Part shown: one piece after another, positions 92 to 28,800 of the stretch
Numbering within the stretch: the stretch's first letter is position 1
Layout: the number at the start of each line of letters is the position of its first letter
Origin: Deltaproteobacteria bacterium
GTDB lineage: Bacteria > Myxococcota_A > UBA9160 > SZUA-336
DNA length: 41,514 nucleotides
NCBI GenBank assembly: GCA_019311115.1
Contig: JAFDDB010000012.1
Location: 1-41,514, forward strand
Reading direction: 5' to 3'
Position numbers and translations under genes: made by a program
The notes under the pieces: model-generated
Told to the model about the DNA's origin: nothing
The model's database searches: none
Seen by the model: only the letters and a program-made list of their open reading frames with translations

Positions 92-1210
92 CTACGACCA
101 GACTTCCATGTTGTTTTCGCGGCCGATGTCGCGCGACAAACGGATGCCCAGGACGTCGGTCATGTCACAGGCTGCCAACATGGCCTCGACCTCGGCCTTG
201 GCCGCGTCATCCAGTGCGGCATGTTCGTCCTGCACGCGCTTCAGTAGATAGAAGCGATACGGCTGCGCCATCGCACTGATGGTCGTGCCCCGGACCTCGA
301 AGGTTGCTTGACCCGCACTCCGAGCAGCCACGGTGCCCGGAGGAAGCTCGTCCTGGGCATCGATCCATGCGTTGATGAGGTCCGCAGCCGACTTCGTCTC
401 GGGCACGAAGTCCACGGCGAGGTGCTTCAGCACGGCGATCAGTGTGTCGGGGACGTTGTCGTCCGAAAGGTAGGCGTCGTCCTGAACCTCGAACTCGCCC
501 ACGTCTAGCTCCGGCCGATTCATCCGCTCCACCCACCTGAAGAGCCGGATAGCTTTCTCCTGCATCAGCGAGAGCGGCTTCGGATCGCGGCCCAGGTGCC
601 CATAGAACGGCGCGATCATGCCGAAGTCACCGATCGAGGGCTTGCCGCCGAGCAGATAGGGCTGATCTGAGAAGTGCGCGTTCAGCAGTTCGAGCAACTC
701 CAGATAGAGCTCCTCGATGATCTTGAACGTCGCCGGTACGGCGCCCCACAGCTGACCCGCAGTGCGCGCCCCCTGCATGGCCATCTTGGTCAGAGCCGCG
801 CGGTCGAGAAAGCTCGGCATCGCGGCTCCAAAGTGAAAGACCAGGAAGTCATGATTCAGGTCCGGGAAGTCCCACCGGTAGTGCAGGCCAGGCCGGAGCA
901 AACCCTCGGCACCGATCACGTCGAACAATCGGCTCAGGACCCTCTGCTTTGGCGTCGTCGGAGAGAAGCGATGACCGTTCCGCGCTTCGTAGTGGTCGAT
1001 GATCGCCGCGCCGTCCCGGATGACCTCGCCCGTTTCGGTCTCGAGGGTTGGAATACCCCGGCGGCCGCCGGCCTTCGGCAGAACGGTGTCGCGGTAGTGA
1101 AGGGTGTTCGGCGCGATCTCGCGATAGGCAAGCCCCGCCTTGATGAGGTAGCTGCGCGCCCGGCCGGTATAGAAGGATGCGGGTGCCCCATAGAGAGTGA
1201 TTTTGCTCAT
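92..1210 (-). CDS. glutathione S-transferase-like protein with long C-terminal extension
   Basis: A 372-residue protein starting ATG. The N-terminal ~80 residues look like the thioredoxin-fold domain of GSTs (start MSKITLYGAPASFYTGRAR, then a GIPTLE segment with the usual cis-Pro, and IIDHYEA at the end of the domain). An all-helical C-terminal domain follows at about 100-240, with the YLLGGKPSIGDF segment typical of GST C-domains. It is well over the usual 200-230 residues. The extra ~120 C-terminal residues do not match anything I recognise. No signal peptide is visible, so it should be cytosolic. It is divergent from the selenoprotein gene, with about 120 bp between the two starts. The exact substrate is unknown. 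Confidence 0.85.
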   Translation of the reverse strand: MSKITLYGAPASFYTGRARSYLIKAGLAYREIAPNTLHYRDTVLPKAGGRRGIPTLETETGEVIRDGAAIIDHYEARNGHRFSPTTPKQRVLSRLFDVIGAEGLLRPGLHYRWDFPDLNHDFLVFHFGAAMPSFLDRAALTKMAMQGARTAGQLWGAVPATFKIIEELYLELLELLNAHFSDQPYLLGGKPSIGDFGMIAPFYGHLGRDPKPLSLMQEKAIRLFRWVERMNRPELDVGEFEVQDDAYLSDDNVPDTLIAVLKHLAVDFVPETKSAADLINAWIDAQDELPPGTVAARSAGQATFEVRGTTISAMAQPYRFYLLKRVQDEHAALDDAAKAEVEAMLAACDMTDVLGIRLSRDIGRENNMEVWS

Positions 1211-1312: not shown

Positions 1313-1331
1313 TCAGGAACGGGAGGACGGT

Positions 1332-2480
1332 ATGCAGCCAGAGCTGGAGACACGCGGGACCCGGACGGGCACGGGCTGGCAGGATCATGACGGCTTCGTT
1401 GGCCCGGTTCAGCCAGGCACGGGCCCCAGGAGCGATCCTCGTGGCGACTTCCCTACCGGGCCGGAAATCGGCGACGCCATGCCGGACGCGCGCTGCATTG
1501 CGGCGGACGCGACCCAATTCGATCTGCACGCGCACCGAGCCGGAAGGCCGGCGGTGTTCGTCTTCTACCGCTCCGCGGTCTGGTGACCCCCCTGCCGTGC
1601 GCAGCTGGTCGAGCTGCAAAAAGGCATGCAGGACTTCGATGCGGCGGGCGTCGCCGTGTACGCCTTGAGCTACGATGAGGCGGACGCGCTCAGGGATTTC
1701 GGCGTTGCCCACGGCATCACCTACACCCTGCTGTCCGATCCGGATTCAGACGTCATCCGGTCGTTCAGCATCCTGAATACCCTGATCGACCCGAACGCTC
1801 ATCCCTGGTACGGGATCCCGTACCCCGGCACCTATGTGGTGAGCGCGGAAGGTGCGATCACCCACAAGTTTTTCGACAACAACCTGGCCCTGCGTGCGGG
1901 GCCCGAGCAGTTGCTGCGGGCGGCGCAGGGCCAACCCATGTTGGAATCAAAGCCCAACGAGGCTGCACCGGAGGAGGTTCAGGTGCGCGTCGCGCTCGAC
2001 GGCGACAACCTCGCGCCCATGGTGCAGAAGGATCTCGTCGTGCGCTTCAGCGTTCCGACAGGCCGCCACGTTTACGCGAAACCTGCGCCGCAAGGAGCTG
2101 CAGCCGTCGAGGTAACGCTCGATGAAAACGAACGCCTCGTCCAGCGTCCGGTCGTTCGACCGACGAGCGAACCCCATGCTCTTGCCGGCACGGAAGAGTC
2201 CTTCCAGGTACATCACGATGTGTTCGAACTGCGCTTGCCGCTGACCGTCAACGGCTCTGCCGGCAGCGACGCGGCAGCGATCACGATCTCCGGCGAAGTC
2301 AGTTGGCAGTGCTGTGACGACGAGGTCTGTGACATCCCCACAAGCCAGCGCTTCGAGCTCACCCTGCCGGTGTCGGAACCGCCCGCGGTCGCCCTGGGGA
2401 ATAGAAGAGGCGCGACCCTCGAGCCAAACGCCATGGCGCACTTTCAGAGAATGTCTGAAAGGCGGAGGGGTTCCGACTGA
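1332..2480 (+). CDS. selenocysteine-containing redoxin fused to a DsbD-alpha-like domain (UGA at 1584-1586 read as Sec)
   Basis: A 382-residue protein if the in-frame UGA is read as Sec85. The ATG at 1332 has a GGAGG 5 bp upstream. Residues ~45-200 are an AhpC/TSA-type redoxin: EIGDAMPDA at the start of the fold, then VFYRSAVW-U-P-P-C-RAQL at the active site, where U85 replaces the nucleophilic Cys and C88 is the resolving position. After the UGA the same frame continues as normal redoxin sequence (LSYDEADALRDF, YPGTYVVSAEG). Residues ~214-347 resemble the N-terminal DsbD-alpha immunoglobulin-like domain, with VPTGRHVYA and WQCCDDEVCDIP. C327 and C333 have the five-residue spacing of the DsbD-alpha pair. 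No signal peptide is visible, which is odd for a DsbD-like domain. Ordinary gene callers would split this gene or start it at Met99 (1626). Role inferred: thiol redox or peroxide reduction. Confidence 0.87.
1587..1632 (+). promoter_or_regulatory. bacterial SECIS element
   Basis: Immediately 3' of the UGA. The apical stem GCAGCT (1601-1606) pairs perfectly with AGCTGC (1612-1617) around the loop GGTCG (1607-1611). The loop's GGUC matches the GGUCU loop of the E. coli fdhF SECIS that SelB binds. Below it, CCTGC (1591-1595) pairs with GCAGG (1628-1632) and GTGC (1597-1600) with GCAT (1624-1627, one G-U), leaving a single bulged C and an A-rich 3' bulge. There are 20 nt between the UGA and the first loop G, within the range usual for bacterial SECIS elements and close to the 18 nt of fdhF. 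Confidence 0.87.
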
Positions 2481-2714: not shown

Positions 2715-3353
2715 ATGATCAAGCTATACGGCGCCAACGCGTCTCCATTCGTCCGCAAGGTCATGGCCGTCCTGGCCATCAAGCAGCTGCCCTACGAGCA
2801 CATTCCGTCCATGCCCTTCTCGGGCGATCCGGAGCTGGCCAAGGTCAGCCCGCTCAGCAAGGTACCGGCGCTGATCGACGGCGAGCTCAACATCGCCGAC
2901 TCCAAGGTCATCTGCCGCTACCTGGAAGGCGCCTACCCGGACGTGCCGGTCTACCCCACCGACCCGCGGCAGCGCGCCCGCGCCGACTGGTTCGAGGAGT
3001 ACGGCGGCACCGTGCTGGCCGAGTCCGCGGCCGGAATCTTCTTCCAGCGCTTCATGCGCCCGCGGGTGTTCAAGCAGCCGGCAGACGAAGAAGCCGTCGA
3101 CAAGATCATCAACAAGAACTTGCCGCCCCTCCTGGACTACCTGGAGGCCCAGGTCCCGGTAGAGGGTTTCATCTTCGGGGACCTCACCGTGGCCGACCTG
3201 GCTCTGGCTTCTCCGTTCGTGAATGCCGGGTACGCCCAATACACCATCGACGCTGCGAAGTGGCCGAAGTTCTCCGCACTGGTAGAACGGGTCAAGGCGC
3301 ACAGCGCCATGGCTCCGCTGCTGGCAGTCGAAGCAAAAGCCTTCGGCGGTTAA
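2715..3353 (+). CDS. glutathione S-transferase family protein
   Basis: A 212-residue cytosolic GST of normal length. The thioredoxin-fold domain is at 1-78: MIKLYGANASPFVRKV, with the Ser of ASPF in the usual catalytic Ser/Cys position, then KVPALIDGE with cis-Pro, and IADSKVICRYLE closing the glutathione site. The helical domain at ~88-205 carries the conserved FGDLTVADLAL segment (N-capping box Asp). It lies 3 bp upstream of the DUF3604 gene, so the two are probably co-transcribed and were likely moved together. Natural substrate unknown. Confidence 0.92.
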   Translation: MIKLYGANASPFVRKVMAVLAIKQLPYEHIPSMPFSGDPELAKVSPLSKVPALIDGELNIADSKVICRYLEGAYPDVPVYPTDPRQRARADWFEEYGGTVLAESAAGIFFQRFMRPRVFKQPADEEAVDKIINKNLPPLLDYLEAQVPVEGFIFGDLTVADLALASPFVNAGYAQYTIDAAKWPKFSALVERVKAHSAMAPLLAVEAKAFGG

Positions 3354-3356
3354 CCG

Positions 3357-5375
3357 ATGTTGAAGAAGATCCTGCTGGGCTTCGCCGCGCTGTTTCTTCT
3401 GGCCGTCGCGGTGGTGGGCTGGAGGGTGTGGCCGATCTATCAGCTGTCGCGCGAGATCTCGCCGAGCACCGCCCCCGACGACTACGCAAAGCAGGACGAC
3501 AGCCGAGTCCAGCTTCCCACGCCGCGCGCGCTGGAGCCGCGGCACTTCGATCCGCTGAAGAACGTGTACTGGGGCGAAGTCCACGTGCACACGGTCGAGA
3601 GCCTGGACGCGGTGCTCTTCGGCACGACCGCGACGATCGAGGATGCCTACCGCTTTGCCCGCGGCGAGCCGCTCCGAAGCCCGGGCGGGGAGCTCATGCA
3701 GCTCTCGCGGCCACTCGACTTCATGGCCATCACGGATCACGCGGAAGGCTTCGGCTTGGGCACCCGTTGTGCAGAGCCCGATCTGCGCCTGGCCGGGCGG
3801 GCGATGTGCGGATTCATGCGGACCCCGGGCTTCGCGGCGGCAACGTTTCTGCGGAACCGCCAGACCCGAATGGCGGTCGAGCCCGATCCAACTCAGCCCG
3901 CCGGGGTGTATCGCAATCGCCCCCGGAGTCGTCAGCAGCGGGAAGACAACCCGATCTGTGGCGGCGAAGGCGGCCGGGAACGCTGCCTGCGCGCCGGCCG
4001 GTCGGATTGGGCGCGCTACATCGAGCTGGCCGACCGCCACAACGAGCCCGGCGTGTTCACGACCTTCGCCGGCTACGAGTTCTCGCCGGTACTCGAAGGT
4101 GCCGGGAAGCACCACCGCAACGTCATCTTCAACGGCGACGATCTCCCGGCCCACGCGATCTCTTCGCAAGACGTCGGAAGTGCCACCGAGCTGTGGCGAG
4201 GGCTGGAAGAGACCTGCACGGGCCGCTGCGACTTCCTGACGATCCCGCACAACATGAACAAGGGATGGGGCCTGTTCTACAGCCGGCACACCTGGGATGG
4301 CGACACCTACAGCGAAGACGACTGGCGCCTGAGGATGCGTCGCGAGCCGCTGGCGGAGATGTACCAGGTGAAGGGCACATCGGAGTGCGCGCTGGGTGTC
4401 GGAGCGACCGACGAGGAATGCGCCTTCGAACAGGTCCTGGAGCCGTGCGAGCAGGGGCAGGAGACCGGCTGCGCCTTCGAGTCGTCCTTCGCGCGGCAGG
4501 GACTCCAGATCGGCATGCAGCTCGAGCGCGAGTACGGCTTCAATCCCCTCGCCTTCGGTTTCGTCGCGGCCACGGACGCGCACAACGCGAACCCCGGCGA
4601 CGTCGAGGAGTGGGACTTCCCCGGGAAGGTCGGTGCGGTCAGCTCGCCCGCGGTCCGGCGGCTTCGTACGAGGCCGGGGGCGGAGCCTCACAATCAGATT
4701 CTGACGGACCATGGCTCGGGCGGTCTCGCCGCCGTGTGGGCCGAGGAGAACACCCGGGATGCGATCTTTGCGGGGATGAAGCGGCGAGAAGCCTATGCGA
4801 CCTCGGGGCCGCGCATCGTCCTGCGCTTCTTCGCGGGCTGGGGCTTCGACGCTGCGATCGCCGACGCTCGCAACCCGGTCGCGGTCGCCACCGAGGGTGG
4901 CATTCCGATGGGAGGCGTGCTGCGGCCCGAGGACGAGGGGGCCGGCAGCCCGACCTTCTTCGTCTGGGCCGGCGCCGACTTGATGAGCGCTCCGCTCCAA
5001 CGCATTCAGATCGTCAAGGGTTGGATCGACGCCGAGGGAGAAACGCACGAATGGGTCCGGGACGTCGTCTGCGCAGACGGCCTCGAGGTCGACCCGAATA
5101 CACTTCGCTGTCCGGACAACGGCGCCTCTGTCGACACCCGCTCCTGCCAGACGCGCGGCGAAAGCGGAGCGCGGCAGCTGATGGTGGCCTGGCAGGACGA
5201 GGACTTCGATGCGAGTCAGGGCGCGTTCTACTACGTCAGGGCCATCCAGAACCCGACCTGTCGCTGGTCGACGTACGACGCGATCCGCCTGGGCATCGAA
5301 CCTGATCCGCGCGTGCCCGCGACGATCCGCGAGCGGGCCTGGTCGTCACCGATCTGGATCGATCCTCCGAGCTGA
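3357..5375 (+). CDS. DUF3604 domain protein, membrane-anchored or exported
   Basis: A 672-residue protein of the DUF3604 family, whose members have a PHP-like metal-binding fold. Residues ~5-27 are a hydrophobic N-terminal segment, a signal anchor or signal peptide. Family landmarks seen are YWGEVHVHTVESLDA (~78-92) and DFMAITDHAEGFGLG (~121-135), His/Asp-rich motifs suited to metal binding, and later FVAATDAHNANPGD and RREAYATSGPRI. Several paired cysteines (for example ETGCAFE and DEECAFE) fit an extracytoplasmic location. The biochemical function of the family is not established. It starts 3 bp after the GST stop. A 276-bp gene-free stretch follows, with repeat copy 2 inside it and the tRNA at its end. 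Confidence 0.9.
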   Translation: MLKKILLGFAALFLLAVAVVGWRVWPIYQLSREISPSTAPDDYAKQDDSRVQLPTPRALEPRHFDPLKNVYWGEVHVHTVESLDAVLFGTTATIEDAYRFARGEPLRSPGGELMQLSRPLDFMAITDHAEGFGLGTRCAEPDLRLAGRAMCGFMRTPGFAAATFLRNRQTRMAVEPDPTQPAGVYRNRPRSRQQREDNPICGGEGGRERCLRAGRSDWARYIELADRHNEPGVFTTFAGYEFSPVLEGAGKHHRNVIFNGDDLPAHAISSQDVGSATELWRGLEETCTGRCDFLTIPHNMNKGWGLFYSRHTWDGDTYSEDDWRLRMRREPLAEMYQVKGTSECALGVGATDEECAFEQVLEPCEQGQETGCAFESSFARQGLQIGMQLEREYGFNPLAFGFVAATDAHNANPGDVEEWDFPGKVGAVSSPAVRRLRTRPGAEPHNQILTDHGSGGLAAVWAEENTRDAIFAGMKRREAYATSGPRIVLRFFAGWGFDAAIADARNPVAVATEGGIPMGGVLRPEDEGAGSPTFFVWAGADLMSAPLQRIQIVKGWIDAEGETHEWVRDVVCADGLEVDPNTLRCPDNGASVDTRSCQTRGESGARQLMVAWQDEDFDASQGAFYYVRAIQNPTCRWSTYDAIRLGIEPDPRVPATIRERAWSSPIWIDPPS

Positions 5376-24652: not shown

Positions 24653-26044
24653 TCAGGTACTTTGGTCAATCGCACCCACCTTGAAGGCCTCGCCGACGAG
24701 TCGCGCGTCGTCGTCGGTGAGAGTGCGCGGATCGAGCAGCAACGCACCCTGTGAGACGCGCACGAGCAGTGGCGGGTCACCGGCGCGCAGTGCGCGCGCG
24801 AGCGCGGCGGGGGACCGCGGCGACTCGACACGGACCACGAAGCCGGGAAGCTCGAAGTCGGGCAGCGCTCCCCCGCCGACGAGCGAGCCCTGCGGCACGA
24901 CCGAGCAGCTGAAGCCGCGCGTGGCGAGCGTCTTCGCCAGACGCTCCGCGCGCGCCTCGAGATCGGCGGGCGTCGCCAGCAGCATGCCGAGCACCGGAAG
25001 CGACTCGAGCCGGCCCTCGAGCAGCGTGCGCAGGGTCACGTCCAGGGCCGCGAGCGTCATCTTGTCGACGCGCAGCGCGCGGGCGAGCTGGCTGGTGCGC
25101 ATGCGCTCGATCAGCTCGTGGCTTCCGAGCGCGATCCCCGCCTGGGGTCCACCGAGCAGCTTGTCACCGCTGAACAGCACCAGGTCGGCGCCGTCGGCGA
25201 GCCCGCGCTGGACCTCGGGCTCGGGGATTCCGTACTCGGACAGGTCGACGATGGTCCCGCTTCCCCGGTCCTCGATCAGCGGCAGGCCATGCTCGCGAGC
25301 CAGCGGCGCGAGCTCTCGAAGGCCCGTGTCGTGCGTGAAGCCCCGTATCTCGAAGTTGCTGCGGTGGACCTTGAGCAGCGCGCCCGCGTTCGGGCCGATC
25401 GCGTCGCGGTAGTCGCGCAGGTGCGTCCGGTTCGTGGTCCCGACCTCGACCAGGCGTGCGCGGCTCTGACCCAGGATCTCGGGCACCCGGAACGAGCCCC
25501 CGATCTCGACCAGCTCGCCGCGCGAGAGCAGGACGTCGCGGTCCGGCGCCAGCGCGTCGAGCGCCAGCAGCACCGCCGCGGCGTTGTTGTTGACGACCAG
25601 GGCGTCCTCGGCCCCGGTGGCGCGGCAGAGCAACTCGCGCACCACGCCGAGACGCGAGCCCCGCCGCCCCGTGTCGAGGTCCAGCTCGAGGTCGCTGTAG
25701 CCGACCGCGGCCTCCGCCACGGCCGCGGCCGCCTCGGCCGAGAGCGGCGCCCGACCCAGGTTCGTGTGCAAAACCACCCCGGTCGCGTTCAGCACCCGCC
25801 GCGGCCAGGGCCGGCAGAGAGCCGTGGCCCGGGTACGGACTCGCGTGGCCAGGGGCTCCAGATCCACCGTTCCAGGGCCGTCCGGCGCCCCGAGCAGCTC
25901 TGCGCGTACCTCGTCCAGGACAGCTCTAGCGGCCGCCAGCAGGGCCCACCGAGGGGAAGAAACCCCACTCGAGGAAGCCTCCACCAGCAGATCCACCGCG
26001 GGCAGCTGGCGAAGCCGTGCATTGACCGGGTCTGGTCCGTCCAT
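24653..26044 (-). CDS. selA: L-seryl-tRNA(Sec) selenium transferase
   Basis: 463 residues, about the length of E. coli SelA. This PLP enzyme converts Ser-tRNA(Sec) to Sec-tRNA(Sec) using selenophosphate. The PLP Lys295 is in LVLFSGDKLLGGPQAG. Family blocks NATGVVLHTNLGRAPLS, ALVVNNNAAAVLLAL and VGTTNRTHLRDY are all intact. ATG at 26044. It shows that this genome can probably make selenocysteine, which supports the UGA reading at 1584. selB, selC and selD are not in the window. Confidence 0.97.
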   Translation of the reverse strand: MDGPDPVNARLRQLPAVDLLVEASSSGVSSPRWALLAAARAVLDEVRAELLGAPDGPGTVDLEPLATRVRTRATALCRPWPRRVLNATGVVLHTNLGRAPLSAEAAAAVAEAAVGYSDLELDLDTGRRGSRLGVVRELLCRATGAEDALVVNNNAAAVLLALDALAPDRDVLLSRGELVEIGGSFRVPEILGQSRARLVEVGTTNRTHLRDYRDAIGPNAGALLKVHRSNFEIRGFTHDTGLRELAPLAREHGLPLIEDRGSGTIVDLSEYGIPEPEVQRGLADGADLVLFSGDKLLGGPQAGIALGSHELIERMRTSQLARALRVDKMTLAALDVTLRTLLEGRLESLPVLGMLLATPADLEARAERLAKTLATRGFSCSVVPQGSLVGGGALPDFELPGFVVRVESPRSPAALARALRAGDPPLLVRVSQGALLLDPRTLTDDDARLVGEAFKVGAIDQST

Positions 26045-26377
26045 TAGCGTTGTCTGCGTGTTGATCCGAGCTCCGGGAGCTCCGGTCCCCAGGTGCAATC
26101 CCGCGGAATCCCTAGGGTCTTCCCGCGCCCACGGGCTGCTGCGCGGGGATTGCGATCTTAGCGGATTCCCCGGAATCGGATTGCATACCCGAGCTTGCGT
26201 GGGGCCGGACCCGTGGTCAGTTCCGCGGACGACCCGTCCCCGCTTCTCTGCAGAACGGAACATGCCGCAGAACTGCTGCATCACCCGTCTCAACCGCTTC
26301 CGACCTCGACGGACCCGCGTTCCCGAGCGCAGCGCTCCGCGGGCCCCTACAGGTCGAAGCCGTACAAAGGAACCAGA
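26045..26377. other. divergent selA/rng intergenic region rich in inverted repeats, no gene
   Basis: 333 bp between two divergent genes. Seen here: GAGCTCC-G-GGAGCTC (26068-26082), 24 bp before the selA start; a long-range pair GCAATCCCGCG (26095-26105) with CGCGGGGATTGC (26142-26153); and GATTCC-CC-GGAATC around 26164-26177. The last two could fold in the RNase leader RNA. No convincing -35/-10 pair is seen for either gene. Confidence 0.5.
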
Positions 26378-28326
<1,949 letters not shown>

Positions 28327-28330
<4 letters not shown>

Positions 28331-28800
28331 AGGTCCTCGTCCGCAGGGCAGGAAGGCGGGATCTCGACCCGATCCACGCGCGCTGGCTCCGGCTTCGCGA
28401 GGCCGAAGCCAAGGCCGACGCGCGGTTCGCGCCGTCGAAGAACGCGGACCCCGTGGCGCGCGACCACCGCGAGCTGATCCTGGCCGACCCGCGCACGGCC
28501 TTCTTCGTCGCCGAGGAGCGAGGCGAAATCGTCGGCTTCCTGCACGCACAGATCGAGCAGAACGACCCGAGCTACGACGTCGAGCGCTACGGGCGCATCG
28601 TCGACGTCTACGTCGACGACACTCGCCGCCGCCAGGGCGTCGGGAGCGCGCTGCTGCGCTGCTGCGTGGAGTGGTTCGCGTCGCTCGGGATGCCCGAGTA
28701 CCACGTGCGCACCCCGATCGCGCACCCCGACGCGGCCACGTTCTTCGAACGCGCGGGCGCCAGCGTCGTGTCGATCACGCTCAGCGCCCGCGTCGATTGA
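28327..28800 (+). CDS. GNAT family N-acetyltransferase
   Basis: 157 residues with one GNAT fold. The acetyl-CoA loop is at ~101-110 (RRQGVGSALL), after the strand GRIVDVYVDD. ATG at 28327 overlaps the RNase stop, so it is translationally coupled. The target is unknown; protein or small-molecule amines are both possible. Confidence 0.9.

Follow-up and report, generated by a model that had tools for sequence, protein, structure and literature searches.

A predicted selenocysteine-containing redoxin fused to a DsbD N-terminal-like domain, with a putative intramolecular thiol-disulfide relay

In the window, the whole 41,514-nucleotide stretch of DNA analysed here, the gene at 1332..2480 on the forward strand probably encodes a selenocysteine (Sec)-recoded two-domain thiol-disulfide enzyme with a putative redox relay, and we hold this full explanation with good confidence. 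The in-frame TGA at 1584-1586 almost certainly codes the predicted Sec. The recoding context, the Sec machinery, the domain make-up, the conserved residues and the selection on the gene were established computationally. A relay between the Sec pair and a second, Cys pair within one chain is a reading towards which we lean only slightly.

The selenoprotein coding sequence is a 382-residue frame running from the ATG at 1332 to the TGA stop at 2478-2480 when the internal TGA is translated as a residue, and the relatives keep this frame. A Shine-Dalgarno-like GGGAGG (1321..1326, forward strand) was recognized by eye five bases upstream of the ATG. The original prediction held that the frame is interrupted at 1584-1586 alone, and the translation confirmed this. 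The TGA there is the sole internal stop, no frameshift occurs, and the codon (forward strand; also TGA in relatives) stands as residue 85 of a UPPC motif in the context FYRSAVW-U-PPC. The Cys expected three residues past the TGA is Cys88 (1593..1595, forward strand), the U-x-x-C partner of Sec85, and it is invariant in 36/36 aligned sequences. The truncated ORF foreseen from 1626 is also real: without recoding, the largest ORF in the frame is ATG 1626-2480, of 284 aa. The window protein stays below the cut-off of every NCBIfam model, so automatic annotation likely truncates the gene or calls it broken.

Relatives were gathered from genome_contigs, an 84,980-species collection, by a scan with alignment A1, which gave 149 confirmed relatives, and the best 80 were kept. 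A1 was made of TGA members alone; Cys was the residue at the site in one of the two scan patterns, and the codons permitted at the Sec site in relatives were TGA, Cys, Trp and Ser. All 80 relatives (the best 80 of 149), which are 33-78% identical to the window protein, carry TGA at the Sec codon. They come from Pseudomonadota, Actinomycetota, Acidobacteriota, Myxococcota and Planctomycetota, plus one MAG labelled Euryarchaeota. In a search of 377 genomes of the phylum, with the 5 best candidates scored per genome, every one of the 38 matches above 300 bits contained exactly one TGA; 37 extend over both domains, and the remaining match (G058:C190) is limited to positions 8-221. Among the weaker phylum matches listed, most are confined to the redoxin part; they include sequences with TGA, with other stops and without any stop. 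Within the class, 34/90 genomes had a match at E <=1e-15, in 41 places, of which 38 have one TGA, 2 have two and 1 has none, the last being a 3' fragment that stops short of the Sec site. Two full-length paralogues in the window's own genome (G000) also carry TGA. A Cys form of the two-domain protein was found neither among the best 80 relatives nor among the 38 phylum matches above 300 bits. Of the Cys homologues that were to be sought at position 85, none with two domains came up in these sets, so a Cys-for-Sec comparison is feasible with single-domain redoxins alone.

Some further redoxins came up in these searches. Many of the phylum rows below 100 bits are matches to the redoxin part from the same class with one or two in-frame TGA codons. 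They hint that the class may have more Sec redoxins, although some of these alignments may run past a true stop. A single-domain redoxin in G000 (L024 1501-1899, contig C123) has an in-frame TGA within W-U-P-F-C. Its N-terminal part is hydrophobic, with a membrane-anchored look by eye, and its hairpin stem differs from the other stems through compensating changes.

The genome of the window (4.17 Mb in 262 contigs, 93.8% complete) holds the Sec machinery. As the original prediction stated, selA, for L-seryl-tRNA(Sec) selenium transferase, lies in the same window, at 24683..26014 on the reverse strand (TIGR00474, 523 bits against a cut-off of 268; Pfam SelA). It is ~22 kb from the selenoprotein gene on the opposite strand, and the two therefore form no operon. 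The SelA match occupies only the last part of a 1298-residue open frame (window 24653-28549, reverse strand), the remainder of which probably stays open by chance, the DNA being GC-rich. The genes selB, selC and selD, to be sought elsewhere in the genome, are all present. The tRNA-Sec, with 68 bits, clears the gathering score of 47, and ARAGORN reported it as tRNA-SeC with anticodon TCA; one further match above this threshold, at 48.6 bits, is a tRNA-Ser. Two selD genes lie above the cut-off (L016 on contig C192 and L017 on contig C160), each with one in-frame TGA at the first position of a U-x-x-K motif, which is the selD Sec motif in Table 1 of PMC13188914. The selB gene is divided between two contigs, with bases 24-530 of C235 matching model positions 2-170 and 41580-43022 of C154 matching 143-580. 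Neither piece by itself reaches the family cut-off. The ends of the two contigs overlap exactly by 114 bases, so the selB gene is very probably whole. The original prediction would have fallen with a genome lacking selB or selC; both selB and a tRNA-Sec (UCA) were found. Sec use is near universal in the class of the host, with selA present in 84/90 genomes. Among the 34 class genomes that match the gene, 33 have selA, the exception (G084) being ~85% complete. We discarded co-occurrence of the gene with selA within the class as a test, because selA is in 84/90 genomes anyway.

Two other readings of the TGA were weighed. Decay is a frequent cause of a stop codon within a single assembled genome, and the TGA could be a real stop in a once functional redoxin, either as a pseudogene or by sequencing error. 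That the gene can be lost is seen in G002, a genome in the same family as the window genome. The TGA-free 3' fragment mentioned above (L137 2619-2807, G002 contig C295) is a remnant of 63 residues that shares 76% identity with the C-terminal end of the window protein. It directly follows the stop codon of another, unrelated frame, which looks like a phosphotransferase. Judged by its sequence, it is a trace of gene loss in a related genome. Decay or error is nevertheless highly improbable for the window gene, given the TGA at the same codon in every one of the 80 relatives (best 80 of 149) and the 38 phylum matches above 300 bits, a frame without any other stop or frameshift, and purifying selection that acts alike on both sides of the TGA. 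In comparisons with six relatives (66-79% identical), dN/dS was 0.15-0.32 on the 3' side (dN 0.15-0.28, dS 0.46-1.58) and 0.12-0.25 on the 5' side. Purifying selection persists past the TGA in these six comparisons, and the relatives keep the frame, so the downstream decay that was to count against recoding did not appear. An in-frame TGA with a continuous product would also be expected if UGA were read as an ordinary amino acid, for example Trp or Gly. The terminal stops of the 80 relatives are TGA in 40, TAG in 30 and TAA in 10, and the window gene also ends on TGA; this use of TGA as an ordinary terminal stop speaks against a changed genetic code. The presence of a UCA tRNA-Sec, selA, selB and selD and the position of the residue at a redox site preceding P-P-C argue in the same direction, and we give an altered code hardly any weight. 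Sec remains our reading of the codon.

A predicted bacterial SECIS hairpin lies at 1601..1617 on the forward strand, with the stem at 1601-1606/1612-1617 and the loop GGUCG at 1607-1611. The stem has 6 bp, the stability is -8.9 kcal/mol, and 20 nt separate the UGA from the loop. In PMC13188914, the bacterial SECIS model has a hairpin 16-37 nt after the UGA, a loop of 3-9 nt with G in the first two places, a stem of 4-16 bp and an MFE <= -7.5, and the window hairpin, with its loop of 5, agrees with this model throughout. The model is loose: 98/681 TGA triplets on both window strands fit it, 59 of them with hairpins at least as stable. When the 47-nt stretch was shuffled, 17/200 shuffles folded equally well (z = -1.17). 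We therefore rejected the window hairpin alone as proof of a SECIS, and since a lone hairpin is frequent by chance, only comparative evidence counts.

The hairpin was compared in 79 sequences (the window and 78/80 relatives, with one containing N and one identical row omitted), 72 of them distinct. Over the 72 distinct sequences, 99.1% of cells were paired. There were 6 double-change cells: in 5 rows the outermost pair is C-G in place of G-C, and in 1 row a different pair is A-U in place of G-C. Of 500 shuffles, none matched the observed paired percentage, double-change cells or covariation score; on the other two of the five measures, which count pairs or types, 28/500 shuffles reached the observed value. 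Hairpin versions slid along the sequence had 13-41% of cells paired. The change to C-G is confined to one Acidimicrobiia clade, and with the commonest change in a single clade there are few independent compensatory events, perhaps 2 or 3. Codon choice was examined in 97 distinct sequences of 113 collected, including the single-domain paralogue L024 and uncorrected for kinship. Codons in the stem were biased: ACG for the Thr at the stem base in 78/85 (background 0.389), GAG for Glu in 95/95 (0.654), CTG or TTG for the second Leu in 91/96 (0.485) and CAG for Gln in 92/95 (0.759). The first Leu, whose third base is at the loop edge, was unbiased for CTG (40/97 vs 0.381) and mildly raised for CTC (47/97 vs 0.366, p 0.011), which can add a seventh pair. 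The Cys codon preceding the stem had no bias to TGC (68/97 vs background 0.776). The SECIS-like hairpin of the original prediction is thus present and fits the model but is by itself within chance; across the relatives, judged by the covariation and synonymous-site constraint, it is clearly under constraint. In the cell, SelB would bind this hairpin just past the UGA and deliver Sec-tRNA(UCA), and Sec would be inserted at residue 85.

The encoded protein contains two domains. Residues 46-178 (1467..1865, forward strand) match the AhpC/TSA redoxin domain (Pfam PF00578, E 9e-26) with 90.7 bits against a gathering cut-off of 26. Residues 232-343 (2025..2360, forward strand) form a DsbD N-terminal-like domain, for which the window protein scored 28.3 bits with PF11412 (cut-off 25) and which is also identified by PDB fold matches. 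In alignment A2, consisting of 36 members (the window protein and 35 of the 80 relatives), both AhpC-TSA and DsbD_N were matched in 36/36, DsbD_N at E up to 0.001. The Pfam matches of the window protein are AhpC-TSA, Redoxin and DsbD_N alone; the membrane domain and the C-terminal thioredoxin-like domain of whole DsbD were not matched in its 382 residues. The redoxin named in the original prediction is therefore there, with an AhpC/TSA domain, but the protein also has a DsbD-N-like domain with a conserved Cys pair. These two residues, Cys328 (2313..2315, forward strand) and Cys333 (2328..2330, forward strand), form a C-x4-C pair, are each invariant in 36/36 and align with the Cys of E. coli DsbD. 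U85, C88, Q326, P336 and H246 are also invariant in all 36 members. In the wider set, Q-x-C-x4-C-x-x-P follows the Sec codon in 80/80 relatives, and all 80 have 275-342 residues from the Sec codon onward.

The AlphaFold2 model built on A2 had a mean pLDDT of 91.1 and a pTM of 0.89, and a fold search with the whole model gave Bcp/PrxQ and AhpC peroxiredoxins as the best matches. The C-terminal part modelled alone (pLDDT 87, pTM 0.75) had as its 8 best PDB matches seven E. coli DsbD N-terminal chains and one ScsB, including the disulfide-linked 1VRS and 1Z5Y. The TM-scores to DsbD-alpha are moderate, the top five lying at 0.62-0.65 when normalised by target length. The C-terminal profile compared with PDB sequences matched only four DsbD N-terminal sequences at E <=1, all weakly (0.12-0.3), and this weak alignment places both C328 and C333 on the E. 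coli DsbD cysteines. No hydrophobic stretch or export signal was seen by eye at the N-terminus of the protein, and for this reason we infer a cytosolic location. The periplasmic action of DsbD-alpha counts against our reading in this respect.

We propose that the most likely action of the protein would be thiol-disulfide exchange. The N-terminal AhpC/TSA (ResA/TlpA-like) domain would hold the redox pair Sec85-Cys88, and the C-terminal DsbD-alpha-like fold would hold the second redox pair Cys328-Cys333. Sec85 would attack an oxidised substrate, which may be a disulfide in a protein or perhaps a peroxide or a sulfenic acid, and a Sec85-Cys88 selenenylsulfide would form. Electrons may then pass between the selenenylsulfide and Cys328-Cys333 inside one chain. 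The model for such a relay is DsbD-alpha, which in the periplasm exchanges electrons with proteins of thioredoxin type. CcmG is one of the partners that receive electrons from DsbD-alpha, and we take PDB 1Z5Y to be the DsbD-alpha/CcmG complex. The fusion of two modules of partner type suggests electron movement between U85-C88 and C328-C333.

The main competitor to this mechanism is a strict Sec peroxiredoxin, in which Sec85 or Cys88 would reduce hydroperoxides and the DsbD-like domain would be a dedicated reductant or a structural add-on. The Pfam AhpC-TSA match and the Bcp/PrxQ and AhpC folds of the whole model are consistent with it. In the aligned peroxiredoxins the place of U85 is taken by Ser/Thr and C88 falls on their Cys, which in Bcp and Rv2238c is the peroxidatic one. 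U85 itself aligns with the N-terminal nucleophile position of ResA-type enzymes. The claim that the TGA occupies the place of the family's nucleophilic Cys therefore holds for ResA/TlpA-type proteins and not for true peroxiredoxins, in which C88 is on the peroxidatic Cys. The U-x-x-C of the window protein together with a G-x-P-x-P-G segment resembles the ResA/TlpA oxidoreductases, which were also matched, and the motif differs from the T-x-x-C/U of peroxiredoxins; the experimentally verified Sec peroxiredoxin has T-x-x-U and not U-x-x-C (Table 1, PMC13188914). Because U85 matches the ResA nucleophile while peroxiredoxins have Ser/Thr there, a Sec thiol-disulfide oxidoreductase is favoured over a classical peroxiredoxin, which we regard as possible but doubtful. 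Alternatively, the C-terminal domain could have the DsbD-alpha fold but serve in binding, its two Cys joined in a structural disulfide that does not take part in redox exchange with Sec85. Domains of the immunoglobulin type frequently act as binding modules, and a static bond might be favoured by the Cys spacing, which is four residues here and five in E. coli DsbD. Against this, stable disulfides are unusual in cytosolic proteins, and 80/80 relatives keep both Cys together with Q326 and P336, arranged as in the Q-x-C...C-x-P of E. coli DsbD. We think a purely binding role unlikely.

A DUF3604 gene (3357..5375, forward strand; Pfam PF12228), the only copy found in G000, starts 0.9 kb downstream of the selenoprotein gene. 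DUF3604 also occurs within 2.6 kb downstream in 7/80 relatives' loci (L057, L058, L062, L116, L130, L132 and L134; 752,837 flanking bases in all 80), whose hosts are Gammaproteobacteria/Pseudomonadales, Halieaceae and Acidobacteriota. In L062 and L134 it is the immediate same-strand neighbour of the selenoprotein gene, and in L134 it starts where the redoxin gene ends. Upstream of the selenoprotein gene, DUF3604 is absent among the 80 loci. The flank is shorter than 2.6 kb upstream in 20/80 loci and downstream in 13/80, and with so few short flanks the upstream absence is only slightly biased. By our estimate about 0.2 such loci would be expected at one copy per genome, compared with the 7 observed, some of which are close kin. 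DUF3604 had no PDB sequence match, and a term search of the literature returned nothing on its function by title. ORF clusters over the 80 loci, grouped without naming each family and with those overlapping the gene in other reading frames discounted by position only, revealed no other neighbour recurring across phyla. Glutathione S-transferase-like genes flank the selenoprotein gene in the window, at 92-1210 (reverse strand) and 2715-3353 (forward strand), and their counterparts (E up to 1e-10) occur in only 3 and 1 of 80 loci, respectively.

A tree of 83 rows places the window protein in a 9-row branch (support 100/100) whose other members are six sequences from Pseudomonadota and two from Acidobacteriota. 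The rest of the enclosing branch of 29 rows consists of 19 Actinomycetota, titled as Acidimicrobiia, and one MAG with the label Euryarchaeota, and the two G000 paralogues are placed in the other main branch of the tree. Horizontal transfer plus old paralogy would fit this topology, in which some bins may hold foreign contigs. A viral origin was rejected, as viral_contigs gave 6 pattern matches of which none was confirmed and phages gave none. A plasmid origin was likewise rejected: no plasmid place covers 80% of the query, and 31 records have weaker matches.

Sec-containing AhpC/TSA proteins with UxxC are already established. Table 1 of PMC13188914 lists Prx-like thiol:disulfide oxidoreductase selenoproteins with PF00578 and UxxC/UxxU, and the GOS survey has 'Prx-like 1' with pfam00578 and UxxC (PMC2398784). 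The window protein shares with these families the AhpC/TSA domain and Sec in U-x-x-C. Compared by description only, they are named by the redoxin domain alone, whereas the window protein adds a DsbD-N-like domain, and some listed Prx-like members may share the two-domain architecture unremarked. The combination of AhpC/TSA and DsbD_N is not named in Table 1 of PMC13188914, and no mention of such a selenoprotein was found in the main-text portions covered of PMC13188914, PMC9312934, PMC2398784 and PMC12013277. SelL-related redox proteins (NF040769) are redoxins too and match 36/36 members at E up to 0.001, but the window protein scores 36 bits against their cut-off of 120. Unknown_3 resembles the window protein in having a Prx-like Sec domain fused to a Cys-containing domain; its description gives three conserved Cys, some of them in a CxxC, whereas the window protein has two invariant Cys in C-x4-C. 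The two differ by description but may be the same protein family. TsoB (NF045694; Table 1, PMC13188914), rhodanese/DsbD fusion-like, is also a Sec protein with a part related to DsbD by name, but it has a rhodanese domain, U-x4-U with two Sec and no AhpC/TSA domain named.

Among proteins without Sec, the fold and the Q-x-C...C-x-P pair of the E. coli DsbD N-terminal (alpha) domain and ScsB are also found in the window protein, with four residues between the Cys in place of the five in E. coli DsbD. DsbD-alpha belongs to a membrane protein, of which it is the periplasmic portion. In contrast, the window domain is fused behind a Sec redoxin with no membrane part matched and no export signal seen by eye. 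ResA, TlpA and CcmG are exported or membrane-anchored Cys proteins. The N-terminal nucleophile position of ResA is that of U85, and the window protein differs from these proteins in having Sec, in the export signal not seen and in its fusion to a partner domain.

More speculatively, and with clearly less confidence than in the enzyme itself, the protein may represent a family with no Cys form found so far, present in at least four bacterial phyla, probably spread between them, in which a Sec enzyme and a DsbD-alpha-like partner are joined in one soluble chain as a cytosolic counterpart of DsbD-alpha/CcmG that works with the downstream DUF3604 protein. If true, this would give a functional lead for DUF3604. 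The periplasmic counterparts of both fused modules are known redox partners, and the fusion of such modules makes an intramolecular Sec-to-Cys relay directly testable. Every readable two-domain copy has Sec and none has Cys, making the family a good case for asking why selenium is indispensable. DUF3604 as a recurrent neighbour is a testable lead on a family of unknown function.
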